A DNA stretch of 37,843 nt from Hadesarchaea archaeon (GTDB taxonomy: Archaea; Hadarchaeota; Hadarchaeia; Hadarchaeales; WYZ-LMO6). The translations under genes were made by a program, and so were the position numbers. The first letter of the stretch is position 1. Each line of letters begins with the position of its first letter. The stretch is from contig JAPDJF010000035.1 in the NCBI GenBank assembly GCA_029259185.1, positions 1 to 37,843 on the forward strand. The letters run 5' to 3'. Below, piece after piece: positions 2,595 to 35,863 of the stretch. The notes below the pieces were generated by a model, which saw nothing but the letters and a program-made list of their open reading frames with translations, did no database searches and was not told where the DNA came from.

Positions 2595-3535
2595 ATGAAG
2601 AAAACCAAGGGAATTGAGATAAAGAAGGTCGGCAACAACTACTACGCATACCGAGTCACGATGGTCTGGGACAAACAGCTCAAAAGGCGGAGGAAGATTC
2701 CCCGCTACCTCGGAAAGTGGATCAACGGGAAGATAGTCCGCACCACGAAGCGCAGACTCGGCGGAGTGTATGAGTTCGGGAACATCGCCTAGTCTGGCAG
2801 GAACTGGAAGACAGTGAACTGAACAAGCTGCTCGAGACGCACTTTCCCAACGTGAGTTCTTCAACGCGCTCATCACGACGGACGAAAAGCTCGTCTACGA
2901 CATGTCTGCGATCTTCAGCTACTCCAAGAACCTCAACCTCGCAAAGCTGGTTTCAAGGCGTGACAAGTTCCTCCTCCCGCGCATAAACTTGCTCCTCGCG
3001 TTCTCGAGATTCAAACGACAACCGTGCTACGTGAGGCTTGTTCCGGGCTCCGTGATGAGCGTGAAGACTCTGCGCGTTTTCGTCGAGGAAATCCGCGATA
3101 AATCGGCTTTTCTGATTCTCGACAAGGGATTTCTCGATCGGCACAACCTCGAGGTTCTGGACGGTGCTGGCTTCAACTTCATCCTGCTCTTGCGCCGGAA
3201 CAGCAGGCTCATCGACTACCGGAAGCGGATGTCCGGATGGTTCATCTTCAGGGGCGAGCCATCAAGTGCACTTCCTATCCTCGCGGGCGGTTCTACGTCT
3301 ACCTCTTTGAAGACATCCTCTGAAAGCCACGGAGGAGAACGAGTTCTACAACCAGAAGGCGAGCGGGGCCTCCCGACCTTCCACTTGGAGTGGGCTGGAA
3401 AGATCGCCCTGATCTCAAACGTCAAGCTCAGGCCCCAAGAAGCGTTTCAACTCTACAAGTCCAGAGACGATATCAAGCGAGCCTTCCATGTGTTCAAGAA
3501 CCTGCTCCAGGCCGACACGCCCCACCTTCCTGTTC
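2595..3535 (+). pseudogene. DDE transposase (IS4 superfamily, IS1634-like), frameshifted and truncated
   Basis: The N-terminal part (2595-2792) reads NYYAYRVTMVWDKQLKRRRK and ends GGVYEFGNIA before a stop; homologous sequence resumes one frame over (LVWQELEDSELNKLLETHFP). After another shift it continues EFFNALITTDEKLVYDMSAI with FSYS, the expected first catalytic Asp. It then passes RLVPGSVMSVKTLRVFVEE and FLILDKGFLDRHNL, the second Asp. It breaks again in the 3240-3340 region and resumes with WAGKIALISN and the SRDDIKRAFHVFKNLL helix that normally carries the catalytic Glu. The gene stops being recognisable at about 3535, where the antisense IS607 tnpA begins. At least three frame disruptions make it inactive. 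The missing C-terminus may be the fragment at 1642-1841. Confidence 0.75.
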
Positions 3536-3833
3536 TCGTTCACTCCAGAAGCCACGTCTTCGATTACATCGATAACTTTCAACTTGTTTGTTACGCAGTA
3601 GCTCAGCAGCCTTTCTCTCTGCCTGTTCAGGTTCCCGGCATCCTGCTGTTTCTTTGCCGAGACCCTCGCGTAAATGGCCACCCCAAGCGGGCTTCCCATC
3701 AATCTGTCCAGCTCCGCCTTCTCCACGTAACGATGTTTTCCGATTCTCACTCCCTTTATTACTCCTTGATCGATGTACTTCCGTAGGGTATGGGGTGTAA
3801 TCTCGTGTACTTTGCAGCCTCCTTTATTTCCAT
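3536..3833 (-). pseudogene. tnpA: IS607 serine-recombinase TnpA, longer truncated copy
   Basis: Begins at ATG 3833 with the same helix-turn-helix and the same -1 frameshift at the C4 run (3792-3795) as the copy at 1893. From there it extends further: YARVS catalytic segment, NLNRQRERLLSYC, then VIEDVASGVNENR, all standard for IS607 resolvase domains. Similarity ends after NENRK near 3536, where DDE transposase sequence begins on the other strand. About half the recombinase domain and all of any tnpB are missing. The shared frameshift means it was present before the copies became an inverted repeat, or was spread by gene conversion. Confidence 0.75.
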
Positions 3834-8120: not shown

Positions 8121-8729
8121 TTATCCAGGTGGTCGGTGGAGGACCTCCGTTTTTTGAACTTCCACCCTCCTGATGGGGCAGTATTTCTTCGCCAGCTTGT
8201 ATATGTCCGCTGATAGTTTTCCTAGGACGGCCTCTTGAACGAATTGGTCGAAAGTGCGCTCCTTCGCTCGCCCCTCTATCAGAACACCGATCTCCGAGCG
8301 AATAGCCTTTACCTTCGCCCTCGAGACACGTCTGCCGGTAATGACCACGGAGGTGACTTGGATCTCCGTCCCATCCTTCGTTCTGACGGTCGTGATGTGA
8401 TCTACTTTGGTTGCCCTCCTTCGCACTTGGCTCCGCATGAAGTGTTGTGCCAAATCATGTCCCACGAACTCGGTAAATGCTTTCGTCCCATCGACCCTCT
8501 TTATCTGGAAGAAAAGTTTGATGTAGGATTTGGAGACATCCTGTACGAGGTCTCCCAGCGAGGTTTCCACTTTTCTTCCCAAGAGTTGAGCCGGTTCGGA
8601 GGCAGGTGTTTCCCCAACCTTTGTTTCCCCAAACATTGATGGGGCATGGATGTCATACCAAGTTTTCTTCTTCCACATCTTTCCTGCCGCTGTGGACCTG
8701 GGTTTCTCAGCAGGCAACTTTTCACCCAC
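8121..8729 (-). CDS. rps3ae: Ribosomal protein S3Ae (eS1)
   Basis: 202 residues, a normal length for archaeal eS1. Recognisable blocks are KKKTWYDIHAPSMFGE near the N-terminus, DLAQHFMRSQVRRRATKVDH in the middle and KKYCPIRRVEVQKTEVL at the C-terminus. It is a small-subunit protein on the platform near the mRNA exit. The GTG start at 8729 overlaps the end of serS by eight bases. In many archaea pcc1 and rps3ae are close neighbours; here serS and a MITE lie between them. Confidence 0.93.
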   Translation of the reverse strand: MGEKLPAEKPRSTAAGKMWKKKTWYDIHAPSMFGETKVGETPASEPAQLLGRKVETSLGDLVQDVSKSYIKLFFQIKRVDGTKAFTEFVGHDLAQHFMRSQVRRRATKVDHITTVRTKDGTEIQVTSVVITGRRVSRAKVKAIRSEIGVLIEGRAKERTFDQFVQEAVLGKLSADIYKLAKKYCPIRRVEVQKTEVLHRPPG

Positions 8730-10215
8730 TAGGTTTGGAAGCTGTGGATAAAGACTTCACGCGCCCCCTCACGGGTGGAGGCCAAGAGCGAAAATCGAAG
8801 CCGTGCTGGGCCAGGAACCCAGCTACCCAGCGAGTGGTTCCGAACCCACAGCACCCGGTCCATATCTGTCTGTTTTTAACCTCTCTTATCTTGAAGGACT
8901 TAACGAACTTCTCTCCGTGAACGTTCAGGGATGCGATCTCTAGCCATCCGTTCTTATACGGCAGTTTCACCTCTAGGTCATACGTGGCCACTTCCGGGCC
9001 CTTCTCAGGTTCCTCGTCTTCACGCAGGTAGAAAGGAGTCGCCACGGTGAGACGCCATTCCATTTCGAGTTCTTCTAGGAGTTTAATGCTTTCATCTTTG
9101 ATCGAGTCCCGGATAAGCATTACATCTTCCGGCTTCCCTATGAATACGAACTCGATCCTCCTAAACTCATGGGTGCGGATGAGTCCCTCCGCTCCTCCCC
9201 CTTCCCATCGATAGGTCCAGCCACTGCGGTCGAAGAGTTTGATGGGCAGATCCTCGACTTCCACCGTAGACCTCTCGAACATGTGATAAAACGGTTCACA
9301 CTGGGCTGGGGCGAGCACATAGGATGGGGGTTCAACGACTCCTTTCAAGATGTCTCTGGACACCTCGTTCCTCAGTCTAAGTTCCTGTTTGAAGTCCTTG
9401 AACGATTCCGGGTTCCTGGGTGGAGGGCAGACGTAATACATCCCCTCAGGTATCCCATCTAGGTATCCCGGCATTCGTCTCATAACCTCAAGCGGGATGA
9501 GCTTTGGAAACATACCCTCCTCGAACCCGAGCGGGACGGCGATGTGCTCGATTATCAAATCCTCGATCGCCCGCAGTATCCTGGCGTACGGGGGAGCGTA
9601 CGTCCATTGCCCCCTTCCTGGGAATTCACGCACCCATCCTTCTCGCTTCATGAACTCAAGTGGATCTTCCCTAAACTTCACCTTCGCCCTACCCCCCTGT
9701 TTGACCACAAGTGATCCGGGTGCTTTGGGGGGAAGAGATCGGGCCATCGACTCCAAATGGGACACGAGTCTATCCACCATCCCCTTTCTCAGATCGGCTT
9801 CACTGATGTCGCGGAGGGTCACGATGAGCTTCTCGCCCCTTTGGACTTCACAAGGTAGCTTCCGGAGTTCAGATTCTATCCTTTCGGTGGGTGTGATGGG
9901 GAGTTCGATCCGATATTCTAGAGTCTCTATCCCTCTTAGGCCTATCTTGTGTTTTTCGCCCAATCGCGTCTTGAGTTCTTTGGCGATCCTGAGAAGCGCG
10001 CTGTGGGCTCTTACGTATCTCCCCGACTCAATAGAGATCTCTATCTCCTTTCCCTTCATCCTCCATCCGGCTACTCTTGCCGCTTCGTCTTCTTTCCCTC
10101 GCGGTGCCCCTTTGGTCAAGAGAGGTGTTGATCCCTCCATCACGTTTTTCACCGTTTCTTCGGCTTTCCCAAGCTCCCCTCCGAACCTCATTCTTGCGGA
10201 TAGATGAAATCTCAT
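8722..10215 (-). CDS. serS: Type 2 (methanogen-type) seryl-tRNA synthetase
   Basis: 497 residues. This is not the common SerRS but the rare zinc-dependent archaeal form. An N-terminal tRNA-binding domain of about 160 residues precedes a class II core that includes the putative zinc ligands known from the Methanosarcina enzyme: a Cys in LAPAQCEPFYHMFE, a Glu in the RRIEFVFIG strand and a Cys in WTGCCGFGTTRWV. The C-terminus ends LAQHGFDFRSWPPPVR. It charges tRNA-Ser. The ATG at 10215 would have lain about 35 bases after the pcc1 stop before a 306-bp MITE landed between them. The MITE now separates serS from the upstream operon, so serS and the downstream genes may need a new promoter or read-through. 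Confidence 0.93.
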   Translation of the reverse strand: MRFHLSARMRFGGELGKAEETVKNVMEGSTPLLTKGAPRGKEDEAARVAGWRMKGKEIEISIESGRYVRAHSALLRIAKELKTRLGEKHKIGLRGIETLEYRIELPITPTERIESELRKLPCEVQRGEKLIVTLRDISEADLRKGMVDRLVSHLESMARSLPPKAPGSLVVKQGGRAKVKFREDPLEFMKREGWVREFPGRGQWTYAPPYARILRAIEDLIIEHIAVPLGFEEGMFPKLIPLEVMRRMPGYLDGIPEGMYYVCPPPRNPESFKDFKQELRLRNEVSRDILKGVVEPPSYVLAPAQCEPFYHMFERSTVEVEDLPIKLFDRSGWTYRWEGGGAEGLIRTHEFRRIEFVFIGKPEDVMLIRDSIKDESIKLLEELEMEWRLTVATPFYLREDEEPEKGPEVATYDLEVKLPYKNGWLEIASLNVHGEKFVKSFKIREVKNRQIWTGCCGFGTTRWVAGFLAQHGFDFRSWPPPVRGRVKSLSTASKPSG

Positions 10216-10250
10216 CTCAATCCCATGTCTCCCTCAGGTGATAAGTTTTT

Positions 10251-10576
10251 CCCACTATTCTGCTTTGCACAAAAATACCGCAAAAGTCAAATGGACCCCA
10301 AAAGGTCGTGGTTGAGTTGGCCTCCAAGCGATAAGGGCTGAACCCTACGGCCTCCGATCCAAGCCGTGTCGACGAGCTTGAAGGAAACCCCCACCCATCG
10401 CCAGCCTTCCAAGCCAAGCACGGCAGTAGTAAGAGGGCAGCCTCGTTTGCTCTCTCAGAGTCCGGTAATCCTTCTCAAGGGCCTGGGCCGAGGGCTTTCG
10501 GCCCTTAGGGGACCCCGAGCCCCCAAGCACGGAAATTGGCCTCAGGGGCTAATTTTTGTGCAAAGCCCCACTATTC
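10251..10576 (+). mobile_element. 306-bp MITE-like element with 15-bp TIRs and 10-bp target duplication
   Basis: The element occupies 10261-10566. GCTTTGCACAAAAAT at 10262-10276 is repeated exactly as the inverted complement at 10552-10566. It is flanked by a perfect direct repeat CCCACTATTC (10251-10260 and 10567-10576). Its outer parts match the ends of the larger tnpB element at 34147-35272 in reverse orientation: the left end matches the 5' tnpB side (GGCCTCCAAG, GGGCTGAAC), and the right end matches the 3' tnpB tail (GCCCCCAAGCACGG, CCTCAGGGGCTAA). A middle block (about 10400-10485) also matches but is flipped relative to the ends. No coding capacity remains. It sits between pcc1 and serS, and the right duplication includes the pcc1 stop codon. 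Confidence 0.85.
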
Positions 10577-10804
10577 AATCACACTCTCAGCGGTTTCAGT
10601 ACACGCGAGCAGGTCGTCGAGTGTTGCGAGCAGGGTTTCTATTTTTCCTTCCATCTCCACCGTGGTGGTAATCGTCCCACCCGAGGTGGTCGTCTTCACT
10701 TTCACCATCCTCGATTGAAGGTTATCGGGTTTCAGCGCTCTCGCTACGGCCCTCGCCGTTTCCGGGTTTTCGTAAGAGCACTCGACTCTCGCTTTGAGTT
10801 TCAC
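10571..10804 (-). CDS. pcc1: KEOPS complex subunit Pcc1
   Basis: 77 residues from GTG 10804, with a G-rich Shine-Dalgarno upstream. The CTAG/Pcc1 pattern is visible: an N-terminal strand with a Glu-Asn pair, ARAVARALKPDN, a Thr-rich central strand and the C-terminal helix LLATLDDLLACTETAESVI. Pcc1 is the dimerising subunit of KEOPS, which with Kae1 makes the t6A modification at position 37 of ANN-decoding tRNAs. It lies 26 bases after radA. Its TAG (10571-10573) lies inside the MITE target duplication, so the gene was spared by the insertion. Confidence 0.85.
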   Translation of the reverse strand: MKLKARVECSYENPETARAVARALKPDNLQSRMVKVKTTTSGGTITTTVEMEGKIETLLATLDDLLACTETAESVIE

Positions 10805-31948: not shown

Positions 31949-34138
31949 ATGCATCGATACAAACACGTATCGGACATAGAGAAGTTAATGTGGAAGCCCT
32001 CCCACGTAAGGAACATCGGGATAGTGGCCCATGTCGATCACGGCAAGACGACCTTGACGGATTCGCTGGTGGCAGCTTCAGGCATAATAAGCTTTGAACT
32101 CGCGGGAGAGCAGCTCTTCACAGATTTTCTGGATATTGAACAGCAGAGAGGGATCACCGTCCAAACTTCGGCTGTGAGTTTGGTTCACACACTCGGGGGG
32201 GAGGAATACTTGATCAACCTCCTCGACACTCCTGGACACGTGGATTTCACGGGAGACGTGACGAGGGCTTTGCGTGCTATCGATGGTGTGGTGGTGGTGA
32301 TGGATGCCGTTGAGGGGGTGATGCCTCAAACGGAAACAGTCGTCCGCCAAGCACTCCAAGAGCGCACGAAGCCCGTGCTTTTCATTAACAAGGTCGACAG
32401 GCTCATAGATGAACTTAAACTCCCTCCCGAAGCCATGCAGGCTAGGTTGGCGAAACTTATCTCTCAGTTCAACGAAATAGTGAGGAAATACGCCCCTCCC
32501 GAACTTGCGGAGGGGTGGCAGGTTAAGGTTGAGGAAGGATCGGTGGCTTTCGGTTCGGCTAAGGAGAAGTGGGCCCTGTCCACATCTCAGATGCGGAAGA
32601 AAGGTATCACCTTCAAGGATATCTTAGGGGCTTCACGGGAGGGGGGAAGAGAAGAACTCGCCAAGCGAACCCCGCTCTACGAGGTGGTTTTGGATATGGT
32701 AATCCGCCACCTTCCAGATCCTAGGGAAGCCCAGCGACTCCGTATCCCGATCCTCTGGAAGGGCGATTTGGAAAGTGAATTAGGAAAAGCGATGCTCTCA
32801 TGCGATCCGAAAGGAAAGGTGTGCATGGTCATCACCGATATAATAGTGGACGAGCAAGCTGGGGTTATATCTACGGGGAGGGTTTTCTCAGGAACGCTGG
32901 AGAAAGGGAAGCCGGTGAGATTGGTTGGGTCGAAGCAGGAGGCCAGAGTTCAGCAAGTTGGGATCTACATAGGACCAAAGAGAGAGATAGTTGAAAAGGT
33001 TCCCGCAGGGAATATCGCGGCGATAATAGGGATGAAGGAGGCTTACGTGGGGGAGACACTCGTGGAAGCCGGGGTCGAGGGGGAAGGATTCGAAGAACTC
33101 AGGTACATAAGTGAACCCGTCGTCACCGTGGCCGTGGAACCGAAGAACTTCCAAGACTTACCCAAGCTCGTGAACTTCCTCAGTAAAATAGCGAGAGAAG
33201 ATCCCAATGTGAGGGTCAAAATAAACGAGGAGACGGGTGAATACTTGGTCTCCGGGATGGGAGAGGTCCACTTGGAGATAGTGGAGTACAAACTCAAGGA
33301 GGCTGGGCTGGAGATCAAAACCTCGGAGCCATTGGTGGTCTACAGAGAGACGATTGTGGGGAAGGCTGGACCCGTCGAGGGTAAGTCCCCGAACAGGCAC
33401 AATCGATTCCAGATAAGTGTGGAGCCCCTAGAGCAAGAGGTTCTGAAGGCTATCGACGAGAAAGTGGTTAAGACCAAGCAGGACAACAAGGAGCGCGCAC
33501 GAATCTTGAGGGATCTCGGCTGGAGCGCGGATGCTGCCAAGAATGTGATGGCGGTGGTTGGGGGGAACATCTTAGTAGACATGACTAAGGGTGTGCAGTA
33601 CATGCGGGAGGTGGAGGACTATATCGTGGAGGCCTTCAGCCAGGTGGCCAACGAGGGTCCCGTAATGAGGGAGCCGATGAGGGGAGTCAAAGTATTGATC
33701 AACGATGCGGTTCTTCACGAGGATTCCGTCCATCGTGGCCCAGCACAGATCATACCCGCGGTTAGACGTCCAATCCAAGCGTGCGTGCTCCTAGCGAATC
33801 CCGTGATCCTCGAACCTCTATTTAAGTTGGAGGTGCATGTCCCAACGGAGTTTATGGGTGGGGCAATAAAGGTGATCCAAGGGAGGAGAGGGAGGATCGT
33901 GGCCATGGAGCCGGAGGGGGAGGCTACTACGGTCATCCGGGCCCTGCTTCCGGTGGCGAACTCCTTCGGTCTTGCGGCAGAAATGCGTTCGGAGACGGAG
34001 GGGAGAGCGATCTGGGCCACCGAGTTCGAACGTTTTGAGCGTTTGCCCCCTGAACTCCAGAGCCAAGTGATCTCGAATACAAGGAAGAGGAAGGGCATGA
34101 GCCCGGAGCCCCCGAAGGCTGAAGAGTTTATGGAGTGA
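31949..34138 (+). CDS. fusA: Translation elongation factor aEF-2
   Basis: 729 residues, the usual archaeal length. G1 AHVDHGKTT (27-35), switch G3 DTPGHVDF, G4 NKVD, then domains II-V. The diphthamide target His is in the loop EDSVHRGPAQIIPAVRRP at about residue 594, and the final domain contains MGGAIKVIQGRRGRI. It translocates tRNA and mRNA through the ribosome. The TGA at 34136-34138 overlaps the target duplication of the downstream tnpB element, so the gene ends exactly where that element begins and is intact. Confidence 0.97.
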   Translation: MHRYKHVSDIEKLMWKPSHVRNIGIVAHVDHGKTTLTDSLVAASGIISFELAGEQLFTDFLDIEQQRGITVQTSAVSLVHTLGGEEYLINLLDTPGHVDFTGDVTRALRAIDGVVVVMDAVEGVMPQTETVVRQALQERTKPVLFINKVDRLIDELKLPPEAMQARLAKLISQFNEIVRKYAPPELAEGWQVKVEEGSVAFGSAKEKWALSTSQMRKKGITFKDILGASREGGREELAKRTPLYEVVLDMVIRHLPDPREAQRLRIPILWKGDLESELGKAMLSCDPKGKVCMVITDIIVDEQAGVISTGRVFSGTLEKGKPVRLVGSKQEARVQQVGIYIGPKREIVEKVPAGNIAAIIGMKEAYVGETLVEAGVEGEGFEELRYISEPVVTVAVEPKNFQDLPKLVNFLSKIAREDPNVRVKINEETGEYLVSGMGEVHLEIVEYKLKEAGLEIKTSEPLVVYRETIVGKAGPVEGKSPNRHNRFQISVEPLEQEVLKAIDEKVVKTKQDNKERARILRDLGWSADAAKNVMAVVGGNILVDMTKGVQYMREVEDYIVEAFSQVANEGPVMREPMRGVKVLINDAVLHEDSVHRGPAQIIPAVRRPIQACVLLANPVILEPLFKLEVHVPTEFMGGAIKVIQGRRGRIVAMEPEGEATTVIRALLPVANSFGLAAEMRSETEGRAIWATEFERFERLPPELQSQVISNTRKRKGMSPEPPKAEEFME

Positions 34139-35282
34139 TCAGCGAGGGCTTTGCGCAATTAGCCCCTGAGGCCAATTTTCGTGCTTGGGGGCTCGGAGTC
34201 CCCTAAGGGCCGAAAGCCCCACGCTTCCGTCCCTGGGGCAGTGGCCTAGGAACCTCTTTCCTATGTTTACGGCTCCGTTGAGGTCGGCGTTGTACTCCAG
34301 CCCACACGACGAGCATTTGAAGAAGCCTTGAGAGACCCTTCGTCCTTCGTTTCCACAGCGGTGGCACGTTCGGCTGGTGTACGCCTCGCCGGCGCACGCC
34401 ACGCGGACCCCTTCCGAGCCTTGTACTCGATGTACCTCGACAGCCGGTGGTGGGGCATCGAGTGCAAGATGCGCTTGAGCTTCCCTTTGCCCGCTTGTGG
34501 ATTCCCTTCAGGTCCCCTATCACGATGATCGAGTTTCGCTCCTTAGCTTCGCTGACGATAGCCTTCGAGATCTTGTGGCACAGGTCGTCTATTCGCCGGC
34601 TCCTTCCCGCCTACCCGATCGATCACTTTCAGCAATTTCTTTTCTCCAAGCCGCTTTCGGAGCCACGTAATGACGCCTTATCCCCCTTGCTTCCTTCCCG
34701 TAGAGCTTGGGGGAGGTGATGTTGGCCTCCTTCTGCAGCGCCACAGACGCCGCGAGAAAGCGCTCCCCCAAGTCCACTGCGGGGACGCCGGAGGGATGCA
34801 TCGGCTTGACCCTACGCTTGACCGTGAGGTGGAGGAAGAACCTCCCGTTGCGGTGGACGAGCTGTGAGTCGGAGAGCTCAACCCTACCCGAGGAGAGAAG
34901 CTCCTCGTGGGAGCGCCACATCCGCAGCGGGCACCAGATGCGCATACAAGGTTGAAACGGATACGAAAAACCTGGCGAACCTGTTTCCGGTTTCGGTGAG
35001 CTTGAATGAGTCCTTATCGATGAGGATGGGAGCCTTCCGCCTGTCCCCGGCCTTCCAAGCTAAAGCACGGCAGTAGTAGGAGGCAGCCTCGTTTGCTCTC
35101 TCAGAGTCCGGCCTCTCAAGGGCCTGGGCGCGATCCCACGCTTGGAGGTCCTCCAGAAGCTTGCGCTTGAACCGGGTGAGGCCGTAGAGTTCAGCCCTTA
35201 TCGTCTTGGAGGCCAACATCGAACGTGGTCCGTCGGAACCATTTTAAGTTTTCCGGTATTTTTGTGTAAAGCGATCAGCGAG
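34137..35282 (-). mobile_element. 1126-bp TnpB-carrying element with terminal inverted repeats and 10-bp target duplication
   Basis: The element occupies 34147-35272. The direct repeat GATCAGCGAG (34137-34146 and 35273-35282) is perfect. The ends are inverted relatives: GCTTTGCGCAATT at 34148 and, on the other strand, GCTTTACACAAAAAT ending at 35272; the short copy at 10261-10566 has the unmutated version GCTTTGCACAAAAAT at both ends. The only gene content is a broken minus-strand tnpB. IS605 and IS607 elements that normally carry tnpB have neither such inverted repeats nor 10-bp duplications, so this element was probably moved by a DDE-type transposase acting in trans. Confidence 0.8.
34150..35219 (-). 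pseudogene. tnpB: TnpB RNA-guided nuclease, frameshifted
   Basis: Starts at ATG 35219 (MLASKTIRAELYGLTRFKRK). After a frame change it continues WCPLRMWRSHEEL, the first RuvC motif in VPAVDLGERFLAASVAL, and SPKLYGKEARGIRRHYVAPK. Another change leads to DDLCHKISKAIVSEAKERN followed by IIVIGDLKGI, where the catalytic Glu of RuvC-II (normally ...EDL) is Gly. Then come SRYIEYKARK and, one frame over, the zinc ribbon TSRTCHRCGNEG...FKCSSCGLEYNADLNGA with the third RuvC Asp, and a tail. At least two or three shifts plus the Glu loss make it inactive. The C-terminal tail (LSALRGLRAPKHENWPQGL) is shared with the MITE at 10261-10566. Confidence 0.85.
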
Positions 35283-35329
35283 AAAACACCTTTTTAAAGC
35301 CCCCGAGTTCAGTTCCCATAAGGAAGAAG

Positions 35330-35863
35330 ATGGAGGCTTTAGCGAAAGCCCGGCTCTACAAGGATAAGGCGGTGGTCTGGGAAGAGGGTCAAGCCAACCA
35401 GCTGTATCAGCGAGGAGTTTTCGGAAAGCCATTGAGTGGGGGAAAACTTCAGCTCGCTCCAGTTGAAGTTCTTTACTTGGTGGAGAACGGAAAGTTGGAG
35501 GTGGTGGAGGGAAAGTCGGAGAGACCGATTTCCTTCGAGAAGTTGTGGGCGAGGTTCTCGAAGTCCGATCCAGATCTCATGCTGAAGTACAGGGTGTACT
35601 CAGACCTTAGATCGAGGGGATACGTGGTAAAAACCGGACTCAAGTTTGGTGCTCACTTCAGGGTCTATGGGAGAGGAGAAAAGCCAGGGGAGGTCCACTC
35701 AAGATACCTCGTTCACGCGATACCGGAAGGGACGAAGTTCACCCCTTCCGAACTCGCCAGGGCTGTGAGGTTAGCCCATTCGGTCAGGAAGACGATGTTT
35801 TTTGCCGTAGTTGACGATGAGGGAGATGTGACTTATTACTCCCTCAGGAGGGAAAAGCCGTGA
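35330..35863 (+). CDS. endA: tRNA-splicing endonuclease (EndA)
   Basis: 177 residues, the length of the homotetrameric archaeal form with a single catalytic domain. The catalytic domain has YRVYSDLRSRGYVVKTGLKFG with GAHFRVY, a catalytic His in EVHSRYLVHAI and the Lys in AHSVRKTMFF; a Tyr of the triad is expected in the YRVYSDL region. It cuts bulge-helix-bulge introns from pre-tRNA. Its 3' end overlaps trpS by ATGA, so the two genes are translated together. In several archaea the only intron-containing tRNAs include tRNA-Trp, which makes this pairing suggestive, but that is inference. Confidence 0.93.
   Translation: MEALAKARLYKDKAVVWEEGQANQLYQRGVFGKPLSGGKLQLAPVEVLYLVENGKLEVVEGKSERPISFEKLWARFSKSDPDLMLKYRVYSDLRSRGYVVKTGLKFGAHFRVYGRGEKPGEVHSRYLVHAIPEGTKFTPSELARAVRLAHSVRKTMFFAVVDDEGDVTYYSLRREKP

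Follow-up and report, generated by a model that had tools for sequence, protein, structure and literature searches.

The 306-bp repeat between pcc1 and serS in this hadesarchaeal genome is probably a MITE of a family that has terminal inverted repeats (TIRs) and a target duplication (TSD) and carries tnpB alone, moved by a DDE-type cut-and-paste transposase acting in trans and inserted in one orientation beside host promoters. As read from its copies, the family combines TIRs, a 9-bp TSD, a TnpB cargo with an alternative active-site glutamate, and an oriented promoter-proximal position. The window, i.e., the whole stretch of 37,843 nucleotides analysed here, corresponds to contig 15 in a 95%-complete draft genome of 1.27 Mb, whose genes mark it as archaeal. 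A preliminary description of the window had assigned the repeat to a TnpB-family MITE, which agrees with our results, and had missed that it lies at a fixed place, and faces a fixed way, with respect to host promoters.

Structure of the 306-bp element

The non-autonomous element lies at 10261–10567 (plus strand), with its 5′ end, corresponding to the start of tnpB, at the left and a terminal C at 10567. The perfect 15-bp TIRs reported earlier are present at 10262–10276 (GCTTTGCACAAAAAT, plus) and 10552–10566 (minus); GCTTTGCACAAAAAT has a single match in the window, at 10262, as does its reverse complement, at 10552. The family TIR is GGCTTTGCACAAAAAT, and the inverted repeats are 15–16 bp long. 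The element joins the two ends of a tnpB element around an internal tnpB segment that is inverted: its 5′ part (10262–10354, plus) is 79–80% identical to the 5′ end of the tnpB element in the window (34148–35272); a tnpB-derived segment (10398–10488, plus) follows in the orientation opposite to the outer parts; and in the 3′ part (10478–10566, plus), a candidate guide-RNA scaffold, the last ~75 bp match the 3′ end of the same element at 92%. The earlier derivation of both outer parts from this element, then placed at 34147–35272, is borne out by these matches. TIRs, a TSD, no coding capacity, several copies, and a longer relative are all found, and they support the reading of the 306-bp sequence as MITE-like, non-coding, and derived from a TIR/TSD element that encodes TnpB.

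The sequence CCCACTATTC occurs in the window at 10251 and 10567 only, and had been taken for a 10-bp duplication. The direct repeat is real, but we dropped the 10-bp length, because the base following GCAAAGC is C in 18/18 of the 3′ ends in the family whereas its counterpart on the 5′, promoter side is variable; the C is thus part of the element and the TSD is 9 bp long (CCACTATTC, 10252–10260 on the promoter side and 10568–10576 on the pcc1 side, the latter containing the pcc1 stop codon).

The family in the genome

BLAST of the 306-bp query against its own genome, the copy count that had been proposed as a check, gave 41 matches, four of them full-length (94–100% identity), which argues that the repeat is not a chance feature and that it has moved as a 306-bp unit, its four copies being 94–97% identical. 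The family comprises about 20 loci in the 1.27-Mb genome, and at the DNA level it had no BLAST match in 40 relatives. The remaining derivatives are mostly internal deletions with differing break points that retain both ends. Among the 15 copies with two ends, the TSD matches at 9/9 positions in six, which include the full-length and the decayed tnpB copies, at 8/9 in one, and with an indel difference in another; it is imperfect, degraded, or absent in 9/15. The maximum among 210 mismatched end pairings, used as a control, was 7/9. Of the other 306-bp copies, two have no recognisable TSD and a third matches at 6/9; given this loss and the 3–6% difference between 306-bp copies, the recent movement suggested earlier can be called recent only in a relative sense. 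TIR-like matches at C7:25063 and C26 were rejected as chance, being isolated and about as frequent as those of a reversed control pattern.

Two observations concern the surroundings of individual copies. At C13:32182, C14:36950, and C23:8810 (L107, L108, L109), the 15–20 nt beyond the 5′ end are identical (GTAAAGGTTCGAAAAG) and the 3′ flanks differ, and the C20 copy has a 3′ flank similar to the missing partner of these copies; the common flank points to gene conversion, or an ectopic exchange, among copies. Separately, a 64-bp repeat (89% identity) at C32:2866–2878 and C16 ~34320–34390 (L057, L061), which adjoins a lone 5′ TIR in C32 and lies beside a tnpB remnant in C16, hints at another small repeat family.

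Full-length element and its TnpB

A full-length element of ~1.15 kb at C1:38408–39560 shares the 15-bp TIRs of the 306-bp form, is flanked by an exact TSD, and is the single intact copy of the family. Its only substantial gene encodes a TnpB of 361 aa, the stop codon of which abuts the 3′ TIR. The corresponding element in the window (34147–35273, minus strand, about 1.13 kb, 5′ end at right) contains a tnpB ORF decayed by several stops or frameshifts and is flanked by the TSD ATCAGCGAG at 34138–34146 and 35274–35282. Most family copies have no working tnpB.

The protein has the RuvC and zinc-ribbon domains of TnpB and matches the family profiles NF040570 (NCBIfam guided_TnpB, 170 bits) and PF07282 (82 bits). 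Its canonical RuvC-II glutamate site is occupied by glycine (IGDLKG), and a glutamate is instead found exactly six residues ahead of the CxxC zinc finger (GEAYTSRTCHRC; motif E-x6-CxxC), the alternative RuvC arrangement defined in PMC10711439. With the glutamate at this position and none at the canonical one, the protein falls within the alternative-glutamate TnpB clade; RuvC-I reads D-L-G (VDLGE in the L037 TnpB) and not DPG, which sets it apart from pro-Fanzor and Fanzor proteins. Relatives in contigs of other genomes amounted to one distant locus, and the G022 TnpB, at 45% identity, has no TIR or TSD at its locus. Viral contigs yielded no TnpB relatives and 18 scattered single matches to the family TIR pattern.

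At L037, the element 5′ end (1708–1761) carries a BRE/TATA-like promoter of tnpB's own, CCGGAAAACTTAAAAT, and the ATG lies some 54 nt in from the terminus; because this promoter sits inside the 5′ end, tnpB would read divergently from the host promoter. The 3′ end, present in all resolved 3′ copies, has a stable predicted fold (z=−4.5); no pair in the predicted RNA shows compensatory changes, and an Rfam search gave no match.

Insertion beside promoters at two sites in the window

The pcc1–serS gap provides the empty-site comparison that had been proposed as a check. Two genomes of the sister genus (G001 and G003) have pcc1 and serS adjacent with no insertion, and the window flanks, when joined, align collinearly with their pcc1–serS junction, GAAAAACTTAT in the window corresponding to GAAATACTT(A)T in both. 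The serS promoter BRE/TATA GAAAAACTTATC (10240–10251, minus) stands 11 bp from the element end and is conserved in the sister genus, and its distance to the serS start is 35–36 nt in the window and in G001. The promoter is therefore native, the site is empty in relatives, and the insertion was precise, separating the pcc1 stop codon (retained within the TSD) from the BRE of serS. The targeted promoter serves serS (8722–10215, minus), which encodes a methanogenic-type SerRS, and on the other side lies the 3′ part of the gene named pcc1 in the preliminary description (10571–10708, minus), its stop codon within the TSD. The second copy in the window shows the same geometry between an EF-G/EF-2-like gene and endA: the endA promoter BRE/TATA GAAAACACCTTTTTAAAG (35282–35299, plus) adjoins the TSD, and endA, encoding the tRNA-splicing endonuclease, follows at 35330–35863 (plus).

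A common arrangement across the family

Nearly all resolved copies share one orientation and stop about 10 bp short of a host-gene promoter, on its upstream side; all those with a clear promoter are oriented alike. Outward from the element 5′ end come the 9-bp TSD, a BRE (RAAA, offset 10–13), a TATA box, and a gene reading away. Across 18 5′ ends, A occupies offsets 12, 13, and 14 in 16, 16, and 14 copies, respectively, T occupies offset 19 in 14, and offsets 17–22 form a T/A-rich block; AAA at 12–14 is found in 14/18 copies (p about 5e-13 against the mean AAA frequency in the same flanks). By its sequence this is the archaeal BRE/TATA promoter arrangement, and native promoters elsewhere in the genome look similar. 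Host genes start roughly 20–80 nt from the element, several start codons being uncertain, and are Pfam-confirmed for 14/18 copies; most are housekeeping genes, the set including serS, endA, TFS, SMC, thermosome, prefoldin, pyrF, pdxS, a MinD-like ATPase, a CN-hydrolase, and others. Judged by these positions, insertion is non-random, being both oriented and promoter-specific. Two copies have no promoter context: C23:20793, which lies close to the end of its contig, and C32:2878, represented by a 20-bp end only. The copies at C4 and C11:5038 match the rule weakly. At C3:5798 (L040; GTCACCCG x2) and C11:22758 (L111; CCGACA x2), the element end and the BRE are separated by a short tandem repeat that displaces the promoter by about 7 bp; it is possibly the trace of an earlier insertion and excision.

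One may postulate that the flank motif is only a TnpB TAM, with insertion occurring anywhere, persistence occurring where TTTY adjoins the target, since TnpB would cut emptied sites and so restore the element, and the promoter context arising as a by-product of compact intergenic regions. On the 5′ side, TTTY does adjoin the TSD, as expected of a TnpB TAM next to its guide target, which makes it a candidate TAM; orientation would be fixed, because the guide derives from the 3′ flank; and an intact TnpB copy with a plausible active site, judging by its residues, exists. To separate a promoter from the bare TTTY/RAAA motif, we counted 221 intergenic RAAA sites: a TATA-like run at the fixed spacing accompanies 25% of these, but 12/14 of the copies with RAAA at 10–13 (p=3e-6; p=4e-5 with the three flank-sharing copies collapsed to one). 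The downstream genes, moreover, read away from the 5′ end, and a working tnpB is missing in most copies, so that we regard a TAM-only explanation as improbable.

A general preference for AT-rich intergenic sequence, combined with purifying selection against genic insertions and with no promoter recognition, would fit the compact genome and its AT-rich flanks, and the archaeal ISH6 family does target an AT-rich motif (PMC3942029). The signal is, however, specific to offsets 12–14 and 17–22 and one-sided, the 18 3′ ends showing no comparable positional signal apart from the fixed C, and orientation is uniform in all copies with a clear promoter; AT richness as the cause is therefore very doubtful. 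Finally, an IS200/IS605- or IS607-type (PATE-like) TnpB element with a Y1 or serine transposase, in which the ends would be terminal hairpins and the direct repeats incidental, draws on the TnpB cargo, the strong hairpin at the 3′ end, and the usual classing of TnpB-only elements with IS200/IS605 (PMC3627910), but is scarcely credible given that elements of these groups are without TIRs and TSDs (PMC3627910; PMC6188088), that the TIRs of the family are perfect over 15 bp and its TSDs exact over 9 bp in six copies, features that place it outside both groups and argue against their ordinary mode, and that a 5′ counterpart of the hairpin was not noticed.

Helper transposase and proposed mechanism

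The preliminary description had expected an active transposase of the family elsewhere in the genome. Searches with six DDE profiles (DDE_Tnp_1, IS1, IS256/Mutator, ISLre2, MULE, ISKra4) found no helper with matching TIRs in the 95%-complete draft, the matches being confined to a decayed fragment of IS1634-like type and one IS6-like element; the IS1, ISLre2, MULE, and ISKra4 profiles were negative. The IS1634-like fragment (window ~2597–3540), the only DDE_Tnp_1 match in the genome, was rejected because it is truncated and decayed and has no matching TIR. The IS6/IS240-like element at C4 was rejected for its different TIR (GGTTCTCTTCGGAACT); it is complete (L117, about 820–2080), has a 9-bp repeat GATCGTAGC, and is flanked by glycosyltransferase-like ORFs that it may interrupt. 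A Mutator-like DDE transposase was found neither in the element nor, by PF06782, PF10551, and NF033572, in the genome. As the genome is a 95%-complete draft, these searches do not prove the absence of a helper, and a Mutator-like transposase could be supplied by an unassembled copy.

A TSD combined with TIRs is the signature of a DDE-type reaction. In our preferred reading, a transposase acting in trans would carry out such a cut-and-paste reaction and thereby generate the 9-bp duplication. In the copies, the element 5′ end faces the host promoter: the duplication directly abuts the BRE, and the TATA box and the gene lie beyond it. The transposase may recognise either the promoter sequence itself or the TFB/TBP bound there, and orientation would be set by the two unlike ends, as proposed for the Mutator-like transposases of TnGBS, ISLre2, and ISKra4. 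Because the oriented promoter-proximal insertion is an archaeal counterpart of theirs, we infer, by this analogy, a related trans-acting helper, presumably of the Mutator type. Since the core promoter is kept, insertions in the compact genome would be nearly harmless.

TnpB might add a further step. It would be guided by RNA drawn from the conserved 3′ end and the adjoining flank, its TAM would be TTTY, the other strand of the BRE, and it could cut emptied promoter sites and so favour retention of the element; MITEs with a retained 3′ end could act in trans as a source of guides. We offer this retention step as a hypothesis because the 3′ end folds well yet is without covariation support. The full combination, in which a captured TnpB acts alongside core-promoter targeting through TFB/TBP-bound promoters, the BRE doubles as TAM, and emptied sites are cleaved so that the element is kept, is a tentative and rather unlikely elaboration.

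Comparison with known systems

The closest parallels in insertion habit are the bacterial, Mutator-like TnGBS, ISLre2, and ISKra4-group elements, which insert in one orientation 15–17 bp upstream of sigma-A promoters with 8–9 bp repeats (PMC3942029); archaeal promoters as ISH6 targets are only a speculation of the authors of that study. Like p-MULT 3 (TnGBS/ISLre2) and p-MULT 4 (ISKra4 group), the archaeal family has direct repeats within 8–9 bp (9 bp) and inserts in one orientation at a fixed distance upstream of promoters, with BRE/TATA replacing sigma-A. Its inverted repeats, at 15–16 bp, are shorter than the 18–39 bp of those groups, and whereas they encode a Mutator-like transposase, it carries TnpB and no such transposase was found.

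In cargo, the family resembles the eukaryotic Fanzor1 and Fanzor2 DNA transposons, in which an alternative-glutamate TnpB-family nuclease resides in a TIR/TSD cut-and-paste transposon (PMC10711439; PMC3627910), but it is archaeal, its TnpB is small and has D-hydrophobic-G instead of DPG, and the element contains no transposase. IS1341/IS1136-type TnpB-only elements (IS200/IS605, IS607) likewise have TnpB as sole gene and a structured 3′ end, but lack the TIRs and TSDs (PMC3627910) that the archaeal family has. The 306-bp element is similar to prokaryotic MITEs in being short and non-coding, with TIRs, a TSD, several copies, and a longer family member as source; it differs in its inverted internal segment and promoter-directed insertion. 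Integration into safe havens, a constant distance upstream from a gene or promoter, is also known from the Ty3 and Dictyostelium TRE retrotransposons at Pol III genes, which share this habit but no homology with the archaeal family.

In a literature search beyond whose reach lay many subscription papers and preprints, we found no description of TnpB in a prokaryotic TIR/TSD element or of BRE-adjacent transposon targeting in archaea, and found the oriented promoter-upstream safe-haven habit described only for some bacterial transposons. The family thus unites a TnpB-type nuclease in a TIR/TSD transposon, so far seen in eukaryotic Fanzors, with an oriented promoter-upstream landing, so far bacterial. 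This suggests a route by which mobile DNA could spread harmlessly through very compact archaeal genomes, and opens to test whether an archaeal transposase recognises the BRE/TATA promoter or the factors bound to it.
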